Below, piece by piece: positions 7,633 through 46,749 of a DNA stretch of 46,749 bases. Under the pieces are notes generated by a model, which made no database searches, was not told the origin of the DNA, and saw only the letters and a program-made list of their open reading frames with translations. The translations under genes and the position numbers were made by a program. This DNA comes from Woeseiaceae bacterium. Lineage in GTDB: Bacteria > Pseudomonadota > Gammaproteobacteria > Steroidobacterales > Woeseiaceae. The stretch covers positions 1 to 46,749 of the forward strand of contig JAJFKP010000019.1 in NCBI GenBank assembly GCA_021773135.1. The letters are read 5' to 3'. Position 1 is the first letter of the stretch. Each line of letters starts with the position of its first letter.

Positions 7633-8179
7633 GCGATGACATCTTGCTGATATCGATGCCGATCGTTTTCGCGGCGACCGCCCAACGATCGCCAAAAGGT
7701 ACGTCAAATAACACTTCCGGGCTGGCAGGCACGGTTAGCCAGGTGTTGCTGAGAATTTCATTTTCCAGCTGACCCGCATCCCAGCCGGCATAGCCAAGTG
7801 CGATCAATGACTGATCAGGTCCCGAGCCGGTTGCCATGGCGTCGATGATGTCGCGTGACAGGGTCAGCTGGATGTCAGGAGATACTCTTACCGTGCTTTC
7901 GAAACTGTCCACCGGGTTGTGTAAAACAAAGCCGCGTTCCGGCGCGACCGGTCCACCATTCAGGACCGGGTGATCCGCCAACGTGTCGTCCGTTTTGACA
8001 AGATCGAGTTGTTCGAAAAGTCCGCCGAGATTAATGGTTAGAGGACGGTTAATCACAATGCCCAGGGCGCCTTCTGAATTGTGTTCACAGATTAACGTAA
8101 CCGTCGTGCTGAAATTCGGGTCCGCCATCCCCGGCATGGCGATCAACAGCTGGTTGCTTAAGGAGTCTTTCAGTTGCAT
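7616..8179 (-). CDS. yqgE: YqgE/AlgH family protein (DUF179)
   Basis: 187 aa. The family signature is intact: LLIAMPGMADPNFSTTV near the N-terminus, then EHNSEGALGIVINRPL, NGGPVAPERGFVLH, and LIALGYAGWDAGQLE, with the C-terminal WLTVPAS. The protein is cytosolic; its molecular role is poorly known, and AlgH was first described as an alginate regulator in Pseudomonas. It lies directly upstream of ruvX, with which it is almost always paired, and downstream of the tonB-like gene, exactly as in the P. aeruginosa gshB-tonB3-yqgE-yqgF order. Confidence 0.93.
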   Translation of the reverse strand: MQLKDSLSNQLLIAMPGMADPNFSTTVTLICEHNSEGALGIVINRPLTINLGGLFEQLDLVKTDDTLADHPVLNGGPVAPERGFVLHNPVDSFESTVRVSPDIQLTLSRDIIDAMATGSGPDQSLIALGYAGWDAGQLENEILSNTWLTVPASPEVLFDVPFGDRWAVAAKTIGIDISKMSSHAGHA

Positions 8180-26534: not shown

Positions 26535-26590
26535 CGAGTTTCCACCATCGCAAATGATGGCACTATAGACAGGTGCGAAAAACGAAAGTG

Positions 26591-26794
26591 CAAAAATAAA
26601 AAGCCCCGCGTTTTACGGCGGGGCTAACGACTCTTCTTATTAAAGAGGTAACTGTTTGTTCGGTAACCGGATACAGACTTTATTATTATTATTGGATCTC
26701 GATCTTCTTGTTTTTATTATTGTTTTTCTTCTGGCGTCTAAATCCTGTATGTATCTTCAAAGGGCTCCGAGTTCAGTTACACTTCGCTTGGGCA
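26591..26794 (-). ncRNA. Proposed sigma-54-dependent small RNA with CA-type Hfq/Crc motifs
   Basis: On the minus strand a -24/-12 element (26803-26820) precedes about 170 nt without an open frame of note, then a strong Rho-independent terminator (26602-26625) with a T-rich tail. Within it, two A-rich stretches carry AANAANAA motifs: AAAAACAATAATAAAAACAA (plus strand 26708-26727) and CCAATAATAATAATAAAG (26679-26696). In Pseudomonas, sigma-54-driven CrcZ/CrcY RNAs with such CA motifs sequester Hfq/Crc to lift catabolite repression. The same architecture here suggests an RNA sponge of similar type, but no cbrAB lies nearby and the identity is inference. A predicted start of about 26794 gives a ~200 nt transcript. 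Confidence 0.6.
26602..26625 (-). terminator. Rho-independent terminator
   Basis: The 8 bp perfect stem AGCCCCGC / GCGGGGCT has an 8 nt loop. On the minus strand it is followed directly by TTTTTATTTTT (plus strand 26591-26601). It therefore ends a transcript coming from the right, i.e. the proposed small RNA, and lies 67 bp upstream of the methyltransferase start. The downstream side on the plus strand has no T-run, so it is one-directional. Confidence 0.85.
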
Positions 26795-26802
26795 AGACAT
26801 AT

Positions 26803-26820
26803 ATAGCAAGTCCTATGCCA
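26803..26820 (-). promoter_or_regulatory. Sigma-54 (-24/-12) promoter
   Basis: Minus strand TGGCATAGGACTTGCTAT: the GG and GC invariant pairs are separated by exactly 10 bp, and TGGCA...TTGCT matches the consensus TGGCAC-N5-TTGCW at all but one key position. It points left into the A-rich transcript ended by the terminator at 26602. No sigma-70 box is needed to explain the placement. Confidence 0.7.
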
Positions 26821-27091
26821 CAAGCTCATAAAGCAAGTGATTTCAAAGATTTAAAACAGAACCTGATATAGGCGGATTAACACAGCGCCATCAGTTGTAA
26901 AAATTTTCGACAAATCGACGCCGTGTCGGCTAGGTTCACGCCAAGCAACATTTCCTATAACTTTGAAAAAGCGGGGAAAACGTTTTTTGAGCGCACGGGT
27001 GGTTTTCTTCCCCGGGCACTATTCGTCTCTATCATCCCAAAATCGACCCAAGCGTCGCAATTTGGCGACGGTCGACCCATATTTTGTCAAA
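26821..27091. promoter_or_regulatory. AT-rich upstream region with candidate enhancer sites
   Basis: No gene is supported. Two dyads lie upstream of the sigma-54 promoter: the imperfect 19 bp palindrome TTGTAAAAATTTTCGACAA at 26895-26913, about 80-90 bp upstream of the -24 element, and CGTCGC-AATTTG-GCGACG at 27053-27070. The first lies where bacterial enhancer-binding proteins usually bind. The second is about 20 bp downstream of the amidohydrolase stop and could instead be part of that transcript's end. Confidence 0.4.
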
Positions 27092-29071
27092 TTATTCGAC
27101 ATTCTGTGAAACGCCGGCTCGCTCCAGCAGGCTCACGAGGCTGAAGAATCTACCGTTGCGGACAACAGCCGCTATTTGCAACGCATCGCCGGGGTGGTTA
27201 ATGGGATCGCCGTTGATCAACAGCAGGTCCGCCATGGCGCCCGGGGTAATGGTGCCTACCCGGTTTTCAAGGCCCAGCAATAAAGCCGCATTCTTGCCAG
27301 CAGCGTGCAGGACCTGTTCGCCACTGAGGCCAGCGGCGCTTAATGCCCGCAATTCGGCGTGCAGGGCGAGCCCAGGCGGCAAACCATTGGGGCGGCTGCC
27401 AGCGGCGACTAGCAGGTTGCTTGCAGAGAGTGCGGGCCTGTGGGAAAGGCGCCTGGCCGGAGCGACACGGTGACCTAATGCCGCCGCCTGCCTGGTCTCT
27501 AACAAGCTGCTTATCCCGAGCGTGCCTGCATCCGCCATACCCGATATCAGTGTAGGCATGAAGGCTTCAGTGTCGCCCCTGTTGCTGACAGCAGGTTGAC
27601 CGACCGCAAGCGATGCAACCCCCAGAAGCACGTCTGCACCAATACGTGTTCCCACAGTAAAGCTGTCGACAACGATCGGTATGTTGAGAGCCCGCCATCT
27701 GGCCAGCGCCGCCGGCGCGCCGGTAGCAGTCTGAATCCTGGCCAGGTAATAGGCCGATCGGTCAGCTCCGGCGGTGATCTCGCCAACCTCGGCAGCCGGC
27801 AGCAGTCGCGGTCCCGGTGCTGCGGCACCCTCCCAGGCCGTCGTATCGATAGTTACATCGATATCAGGGGAAACCAGCGTAGTCACGCCGTAGGAAAGCA
27901 GCGCGGCGCCGTTAGCAGCATCCAGTGGGTCCGGTAGTGCGGACCACGCGTCAATCAGGCCAGGCATGATGGTCACATCGCCAAGATCGAGAACGGTCGT
28001 GTCCAACCAGTCGCGTCGCGGCTCAATCGCAATGACGGTTCCGTTTTCGATCAGTACATCGAAATTTTCCCGGTATTGGCTCCATATGCCATCGAACAAC
28101 CGCTTCCCGCGAACCACGAATCGGTCTTCCGGTGGATTGATGAGTTCAAGCTGTCGCTTTGCAAATTCGCGCCGCGCCGGCGGAGCGGTTTGGCCGATAT
28201 TCGCCTGAAACCTGACTGCACGACCCCGCCGATCTTCAAAGCCTCGCGCCATGATCTGGCCGTTCGCAACATAAATCATGCGCATTCGATCCGGCCAGAT
28301 GATCGGCGCCACAAAAAAATCCTCGCGATCGCTTACGATCCGGACCAGCGCAGGAGATGACAGGATCGCCATCTTCAGAACCCACCTGTTGTCGACCTCG
28401 TGGAGAAACGTTATCAGGCTGCCGTCCGGTCTCCAGGATGGTGTTGCAAGCGGCGTGTCCGAGACAAACAGTTCAACGTCGTTTTGACCTTTCCTGCGCA
28501 GCATCAGACTGAAGTCGCTTCCGGATTTTCGAACGTAAGCCAGGTTTCTGCCGTTTGCTGACCAGGCGGGATCGGTTTCGTCTCCTTCGAGATCGGTTAG
28601 TCGCCATATCAGTCCCGTCGCAAGATCGGTTTCGAATATGTCCAGCCCCTGCCCGTAACGATCAGTAGAAAAGACCAGGCGCTCGCCGTCAGGATGCCAG
28701 GACGCATCCTGCACATGCAGTGGCGTTTCGATCACACGTCGTTTTACGCCGGAAGCGATATCCAATTCCCATACCTGTTCGCCTGCCTCGGTGCGTAACC
28801 CATACAGGATTCGTGTTCCGTCGGGAGACCAGCGCGGATCGTTCACAGGAAAAATGCCGTTAATCAGTTGCTGTGCCTGTCCCCCGCCGGGTGCGAGCGT
28901 CCAGATTCGATCCATCAAATCCATCGCGATCGTGCCATCTGTCGGCGATACGTCGACGCTGAATTCGCCACCGCTGGCGATCACCGTGTCGGCCTGCGCA
29001 GGCATCTGTGCAATCAAAAGCAGCGCCGCGCAAACGTGTCCGGCCTTAGTCGACACGTTCCACTCGCACAT
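27092..29071 (-). CDS. Secreted TolB-type propeller fused to an amidohydrolase-like domain (active site lost)
   Basis: 659 aa. A signal peptide ends near AQA (about residue 27). Residues 30-310 are PD40/TolB-like propeller blades (DPRWSPDGTRILYGL, DASWHPDGERLVFST, DPAWSANGRNLAYVR, TPSWRPDGSLITFLH). Residues 325-650 follow the amidohydrolase layout (FDGIWSQYRENFDVLIENGTV, DVTIMPGLIDA, and the final VGTITPGAMADLLLINGDP). The metal-binding HxH expected after MPGLIDA is replaced by WSA, no carboxylated-Lys or paired His positions are evident, and the usual G-T-D of the last strand reads G-S-R. So catalysis is unlikely. A 26 bp overlap with the CPXCG gene suggests co-translation; a GTG at 29056 is an alternative start. 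Confidence 0.82.
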   Translation of the reverse strand: MCEWNVSTKAGHVCAALLLIAQMPAQADTVIASGGEFSVDVSPTDGTIAMDLMDRIWTLAPGGGQAQQLINGIFPVNDPRWSPDGTRILYGLRTEAGEQVWELDIASGVKRRVIETPLHVQDASWHPDGERLVFSTDRYGQGLDIFETDLATGLIWRLTDLEGDETDPAWSANGRNLAYVRKSGSDFSLMLRRKGQNDVELFVSDTPLATPSWRPDGSLITFLHEVDNRWVLKMAILSSPALVRIVSDREDFFVAPIIWPDRMRMIYVANGQIMARGFEDRRGRAVRFQANIGQTAPPARREFAKRQLELINPPEDRFVVRGKRLFDGIWSQYRENFDVLIENGTVIAIEPRRDWLDTTVLDLGDVTIMPGLIDAWSALPDPLDAANGAALLSYGVTTLVSPDIDVTIDTTAWEGAAAPGPRLLPAAEVGEITAGADRSAYYLARIQTATGAPAALARWRALNIPIVVDSFTVGTRIGADVLLGVASLAVGQPAVSNRGDTEAFMPTLISGMADAGTLGISSLLETRQAAALGHRVAPARRLSHRPALSASNLLVAAGSRPNGLPPGLALHAELRALSAAGLSGEQVLHAAGKNAALLLGLENRVGTITPGAMADLLLINGDPINHPGDALQIAAVVRNGRFFSLVSLLERAGVSQNVE

Positions 29072-44355: not shown

Positions 44356-44382
44356 GTTATAACTCATAGCCTTAACTGTAAA
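44356..44382 (-). promoter_or_regulatory. Possible promoter of mepM-anmK-ppk
   Basis: On the minus strand TTTACA (plus 44377-44382) and TATAAC (44356-44361) are spaced 15 bp, a little short; a second reading uses TTGTCG with GGCTAT 17 bp apart in the same stretch. Either would give a leader of about 65 bp before the TTG start of mepM. Confidence 0.35.
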
Positions 44383-44486
44383 AATTAACGACAAGTCTTG
44401 ACCTGTTGTCGAATCCGACCAAATGTCTCAACACCACCGTCATTGAGTGATAAAGTGCCGCTGTTTTGCAAACGCCCAGACCGGAA

Positions 44487-46371: not shown

Positions 46372-46749
<378 letters not shown>

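Follow-up and report, generated by a model that had tools for sequence, protein, structure and literature searches.

The small RNAs GlmY and GlmZ of enterobacteria are sigma-54 sRNAs preceded by several sites for the activator and by IHF sites, and they are similar in size to the RNA of about 200 nt described here. Three QseF and two IHF putative sites have been reported upstream of P. mirabilis glmY, and the published site of the activator GlrR is TGTC-N10-GACA. CrcZ and CrcY of Pseudomonas are free-standing RNAs with a sigma-54 promoter served by an NtrC-type activator and with A-rich motifs that suit the Hfq distal face; for CrcZ one expects a place next to cbrAB, activation by CbrB and a Crc partner besides Hfq in the genome. 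At 407 nt and with six A-rich stretches, CrcZ acts by titrating Hfq (PMC4063720). For the PrsK/PrsR-RpoN regulon, a motif pair of proteobacterial PEP-CTERM genes has been matched by phylogenetic profile to PrsR, PrsK and PrsT (Haft 2006, PMC1569441). The upstream motif is 17 nt long, ends in TTTACA, is sometimes repeated and lies 32-92 nt (mean 62.8) before the sigma-54 motif. The targets described there are mainly PEP-CTERM protein genes, and PF07589 is reported to leave many PEP-CTERM proteins undetected. In DAP-chip, enrichment was reported for the PEP-CTERM targets predicted for DVUA0057 of D. vulgaris (PMC3333781), and an RpoN-dependent PEP-CTERM gene has been reported (PMC9850573). In Desulfovibrio vulgaris, the two-component response regulator DVU0679 has as its target Dv_sRNA2, an sRNA encoded downstream of the regulator's own gene (PMC3333781). 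Our literature search, covering several papers as excerpts, met no sRNA described in the PEP-CTERM/PrsR regulon; the sole sRNA met alongside PEP-CTERM and sigma54 has another regulator.

The window, that is, the whole stretch of DNA analysed here (46,749 nucleotides), is an entire contig of a member of the Woeseiaceae, a family common in marine sediments. Its last part (46372-46749) is a 16S rRNA gene cut off by the end of the contig. A sequence-only reading of the window had proposed a sigma-54-driven small RNA on the minus strand, with a near-consensus -24/-12 promoter, two A-rich segments and a strong terminator with an 11-nt T-rich tail, all within about 230 bp of otherwise gene-free DNA. 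These parts are found where it placed them (Table 1), and no open reading frame of at least 100 aa lies within 26535-27083. The unit is longer than first reported, however, because two enhancer copies lie upstream. Comparison among relatives confirms 26591-26820 of the minus strand as a conserved candidate gene for a sigma-54 small RNA.

Table 1. Parts of the sRNA locus in the window.
Feature	Position	Strand	Remarks
Distal enhancer TGTCGAATAATTTGACA	27085..27101	minus	overlaps amidohydrolase stop codon; found in 45/47 copies
Proximal enhancer TGTCGAAAATTTTTACA	26896..26912	minus	92 bp before TGGCA; in 44/47 copies
IHF-like element (TAA-N4-TTGA, reverse of TCAA-N4-TTA)	26841..26853	minus	between enhancer and promoter; one mismatch
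Sigma-54 -24/-12 promoter TGGCATAGGACTTGCT	26805..26820	minus	GG-N10-GC; TGGCA-N6-TTGC in 47/47 copies
Small RNA, about 199-202 nt	26595..26793	minus	covariance model 224 bits; no Rfam family at gathering score
Predicted RNA start, the G of GCCCAAGCG	26793	minus	13 nt past C of TTGC
Conserved 5' block GCCCAAGCGAAGTGTAACTG	26774..26793	minus	first 13 nt mostly unpaired (predicted; candidate seed), last 7 nt in stem P1
Near-invariant block GGATTTAGACGCCAGAAGAA	26726..26745	minus	5' side of stem P2; from alignments
A-rich stretch 1 (AANAANAA / A-R-N repeats)	26704..26732	minus	apical loop of P2
A-rich stretch 2 (AATAATAATAATAAAG)	26676..26693	minus	
Conserved CAGTTACCTCTTT	26642..26654	minus	3' arm of P1, beginning of stem P3
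Intrinsic terminator, 11-nt T-rich tail	26592..26625 (stem 26625-26602)	minus	

Since no Rfam family reaches its threshold at the sRNA, the locus probably represents a new family within a known kind of RNA, the sigma-54-driven, Hfq-type sRNAs. The sequence-only reading had seen in it the design of CrcZ/CrcY, which holds for the Hfq-type A-rich motifs but not as kinship. Homology to CrcZ (RF01675) was rejected at 12.6 bits against a gathering score of 95, with no Crc recognised, and GlmY/GlmZ are absent from the 14 Rfam matches up to E 10. In contrast to CrcZ/CrcY, the locus has PrsR-type enhancers, an invariant 5' end and another genomic place. Its two enhancers (TGTC-N9-GACA and TGTC-N9-TACA) have a spacing of N9, whereas the GlrR site has N10, and the glrR-like gene of the window's genome is located on another contig (C32). 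The PrsK/PrsR-RpoN regulon has the same arrangement of enhancer and sigma-54 promoter, and PrsR is present in the window's genome, but the product here would be an RNA. Dv_sRNA2 is comparable as an sRNA under a two-component response regulator, but its regulator is another one.

The promoter string alone may be due to chance. The sequence-only reading had estimated about 0.2 occurrences in the window; we obtain 0.29, and 25 of 100 shuffles contain at least one, so the case rests on conservation. A blastn search with 26540-26880 as query gave matches in 28 of 60 genomes (its own included), all among the 37 of the same family, and in none of the 23 genomes from other families of the order. The match starts at query position 57-61 in 17 of the 28, and TGGCA is at position 61. 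A covariance model built from 29 copies matches 43 of 61 family genomes. One copy, cut by a contig end (G003), was detected by blastn only, and a diverged copy (G018) was detected through its promoter. The 47 copies examined comprise those of 44 genomes with a blastn or model match, two further loci and the diverged copy. Six genomes of one genus (g5) without a blastn match are small (1.3-2.0 Mb), and the two of them that were tested for Hfq are both without it.

Outside the family, model hits are weak, with three in 274 genomes of a class sample (29.6-34.9 bits) and three in 147 of an order sample (27.2-34.4 bits). The three class-sample hits were rejected as chance because they share little beyond the terminator, the body being mostly deleted in two of the alignments, and because none of them has an enhancer or a sigma-54 site at the right position.

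In relatives the promoter, the A-rich motifs and the terminator are kept after the same upstream gene, a beta-propeller/amidohydrolase gene on the same strand in all 47 copies. Between its last codon in the alignment and the promoter lie 203-300 bp in 46 copies and 83 bp in the diverged one; in the window the gene ends at 27092. The other neighbour named by the sequence-only reading, a methyltransferase gene, is less constant and was recognised downstream in only 28 of 47. As some loci stop soon after the sRNA, the 19 without it are an upper bound. When loci were retrieved through the methyltransferase instead (n=26), the promoter and 5' block were found in eight. The diverged orthologue (L209, 1590-1815, in G018) sits at the same place and retains the enhancer, the promoter, the first ten letters, an A-rich stretch and a terminator, though its body has changed; it carries GCCCAAGCGA at the predicted start.

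Copies were located by an expression requiring a relaxed sigma-54 site before GCC[CA]AAGCG, by which no blastn or model copy was lost. In 45 copies the G of GCCCAAG follows the C of the -12 element at a distance of 13 nt, in the other two at 14 nt. The enhancer is a 17-nt element, TGTCG-N8-KACA, present twice, 92 and 281 bp before the promoter, and 42 of 47 copies have both. The proximal one ends in TTTACA and is separated from TGGCA by 75 nt, within the published limits of 32-92 nt. The element between enhancer and promoter, which is IHF-like with one mismatch to the IHF consensus, is present in relaxed form in 29 of 47 copies. Over 30 aligned upstream regions, the commonest base has a mean frequency of 0.94 and 0.84 in the enhancers, 0.91 in -24/-12 and 0.66 in the IHF-like element, whereas the three spacers of the promoter region are poorly conserved (0.45-0.47). 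The enhancer pattern occurs four times in the window against 0.15 expected, and none of 100 shuffles reaches four. Two of the four are at the sRNA. The others are at 7984-8000 and 44377-44393, and by eye no good sigma-54 site follows the latter.

Single-sequence folding of the RNA is better than that of shuffles (z -2.5). A four-helix structure over 37 copies is paired in 98.6% of cells with six two-sided pair changes, neither of which is reached by any of 500 shuffles; the number of further pair types is unexceptional (100 of 500 shuffles). Covariation is present in P1, which is paired in 100% of cells with two pairs changed on both sides, and in the terminator, where four of eight pairs are changed on both sides. 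P2 and P3 show no two-sided change in the 37 copies, P3 being paired in 93.2% of cells, which counts against the reading preferred below. The mean unpaired probability is 0.66 for nucleotides 1-13, 0.92 for A-rich stretch 1 and 0.63 for stretch 2. Across the 37 aligned copies the first 11 letters do not vary, and the strictest conservation in the alignments is at this 5' end and in other blocks outside the A-rich stretches. A small protein as product was rejected, since four of the first 12 of 43 copies have a reading frame of at least 11 codons and the starts and frames differ.

The A-rich stretches retain their character among the copies. Of 43 complete copies, 40 have the motif AANAANAA in stretch 1, 38 have it in stretch 2 and 36 in both, with two to five non-overlapping occurrences per copy; three further copies, with the 3' end cut or not parsed, are outside this count. 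Letters of stretch 1 vary but it stays A-rich. Of the partners that the likeness to CrcZ/CrcY would bring in, Hfq is encoded in the window's genome (as in 17 of 19 genomes tested), but no Crc was recognised among its four PF03372 (Exo_endo_phos) proteins. The two strongest were compared with PDB entries, the two weaker ones (34 and 50 bits) being outside that comparison. One is closest to exonuclease III-type enzymes. The second scores 305 bits with an AP endonuclease (2jc5) and 252 bits with Crc. It retains GDWNIAH and SDHAP, two motifs of AP endonuclease catalysis which are absent from Crc in the alignment. A terminator with a U tail, an A-rich site and an Hfq gene in the genome are thus found together, as in Hfq-type sRNAs.

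These features could mean that the RNA, made under PrsR and RpoN, is a sponge which, like CrcZ, fills the Hfq distal face with its A-rich stretches, releasing A-rich mRNAs from repression by Hfq. The sequence-only reading had suggested a new family of RNA sponges; newness agrees with the Rfam result, but for the sponge, the main rival of the reading preferred below, we consider the chances rather low. The repeated motifs, the predicted exposure of stretch 1 in a loop, its drift in letters with constant A-richness and the precedent of CrcZ speak for a sponge. However, the RNA has about half the length of CrcZ and fewer A-rich stretches, no Crc was recognised, and a sponge could do without an invariant 5' end. 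As the strictest conservation falls outside the A-rich stretches and the diverged orthologue retains its first ten letters, the facts fit better with an sRNA bound by Hfq and pairing via its 5' end. Such pairing, by GCCCAAGCGAAGUG and perhaps GACGCCAGAAG, is predicted from conservation and folding. A search for targets of the 5' block in 223 loci (1.26 Mb) gave no convincing site, with scattered 9- to 11-letter matches besides the sRNA itself, and this counts against pairing.

The enhancers link the sRNA to another group of genes. Searching ten genomes with the enhancer pattern led to genes with sigma-54 promoters, one of which encodes a PEP-CTERM protein. In a set of 20 PEP-CTERM genes (from four of five genomes searched, the window's genome contributing none) the enhancer and a sigma-54 site, both in relaxed patterns, are upstream of ten. 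The commonest 4+4 dyad upstream of these genes is GTCG-N8-TACA, found at 12 of 20 with a maximum of 5 in 20 shuffles. With a matrix from the PEP-CTERM sites only, the distal sRNA enhancer ranks first in the window and the proximal one second. Promoter and enhancers are common to the sRNA and PEP-CTERM genes of the family. Enhancer and promoter at the right distance gave 42 matches in 17 of 20 genomes, compared with three for the reversed pattern, and in the window's genome the combination occurs once, at the sRNA. Thirty of the 42 were classed: 13 as the sRNA, one as a diverged sRNA, seven as genes for PEP-CTERM-like C-ends, two as PagP-like and seven as other or unclear, some of which are perhaps chance matches.

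The window's genome has 15 Sigma54_activat matches, from which the presence of RpoN was taken. Twelve are above 100 bits, and none of these is encoded on the window's contig. Among ten of the twelve scanned with NCBIfam, one NtrC and one PrsR are over their cut-offs, PrsR (PEP_resp_reg) with 698.9 bits against 502.6. PrsR is over cut-off in 37 of 61 family genomes. Among the family's genomes 37 are at least 90% complete; of these, sRNA and PrsR over cut-off are both present in 25, the sRNA alone in five, PrsR alone in two and neither in five (Fisher p 0.009, with genomes counted as independent and kinship ignored). Since the enhancer is shared with the family's PEP-CTERM genes and fits the published PrsR/RpoN site, the regulator of the sRNA is likely to be PrsR and not CbrB.

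Several observations count against PrsR as regulator. The window's genome has no match to PF07589, and its best PrsK candidate (E 1.9e-22) is below the cut-off, which is passed in eight of 24 genomes. The sRNA occurs without PrsR over cut-off in five of the genomes at least 90% complete (G001, G007, G338, G347 and G351), and PrsR without a model match in two, G339 and G018, the latter having the diverged copy. However, PrsK is over cut-off in G001 and in G338, which is rated complete, so PrsR may be missing from these two assemblies. One genome (G022) has PrsK and neither PrsR over cut-off nor the sRNA.

A different activator, such as GlrR in a control of the GlmY/GlmZ type or another NtrC-like regulator, we regard as quite unlikely. 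The window's genome does encode a GlrR-like protein (629 bits, the best of 25 models listed, below the cut-off of 763), and the published GlrR site resembles TGTC-N9-GACA, one base of spacing apart. In addition, three genomes (G001, G007 and G009) combine the sRNA with a lack of PrsR over cut-off and with a TIGR02915 match at the level of the GlrR of the window's genome (371-383 bits), and GlrR-like genes adjoin PrsR in several genomes. But that one base is absent from both window enhancers, the proximal one has the ending of the published PEP-CTERM motif, PEP-CTERM genes have this enhancer upstream, and G001 is one of the genomes with PrsK over cut-off.

On balance, we therefore consider it probable, by a modest degree, that the locus encodes a free-standing, PrsR/RpoN-induced, Hfq-binding trans-acting sRNA of about 200 nt which pairs via its invariant 5' end. 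Phosphorylated PrsR, the PEP-CTERM/exopolysaccharide response regulator, would bind both enhancer copies, and IHF-type bending would bring it to RpoN polymerase at the -24/-12 promoter, from which a short RNA would be transcribed up to its own terminator. Hfq would hold this RNA by the A-rich loop, through its distal face, and by the U-rich 3' tail, and the accessible 5' end would pair with mRNAs, by which the surface programme would gain a post-transcriptional output. That the conserved stretch is instead a long 3' UTR and terminator of the amidohydrolase mRNA, or a methyltransferase leader, is very improbable: the two neighbour genes are on the same strand, the amidohydrolase precedes every copy and the sole other terminator-like site on the strand between its stop and the sRNA is a weak one at 26923, but conservation sits in the enhancers, in -24/-12 and in the RNA and not in the spacers, and a cis leader was rejected on the methyltransferase not being recognised downstream in up to 19 of 47 copies.

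The shared promoter and enhancer switch suggests that the sRNA is an unrecognised RNA arm of the surface-matrix (PEP-CTERM) programme of the family. If this is true, the RNA would be a marker of PrsR activity and would help to ask which signal PrsK and PrsR sense and how the cell couples matrix production to its other activities. It is also conceivable, though doubtful at present, that PrsR in the Woeseiaceae has the sRNA as its core output, this RNA and not the PEP-CTERM proteins being its most widely kept target, and that in lineages like that of the window's genome PrsR survives chiefly for the RNA.

A PagP-like outer-membrane protein gene (PF07017) follows the same enhancer and a sigma-54 promoter in three genomes (L221, L206 and L092 in G013, G034 and G017), with a distance of 66-67 bp in two and 204 bp in L092; it is a candidate for a second recurrent target of PrsR. 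Galactose-oxidase/kelch-type proteins are encoded after the enhancer-promoter pattern in two genomes (L212, L216). PrsR itself is found near a cluster that reads as galE-glrK-qseG-glrR (L181 10789-16985, L187 2529-10025 and L180 7071-12985), the names being assigned by eye apart from that of the glrR-like gene in the window's genome. A separate EPS locus (L185, L186) holds PrsK and a PrsT-like gene, whereas Haft et al. describe prsK and prsR in tandem.
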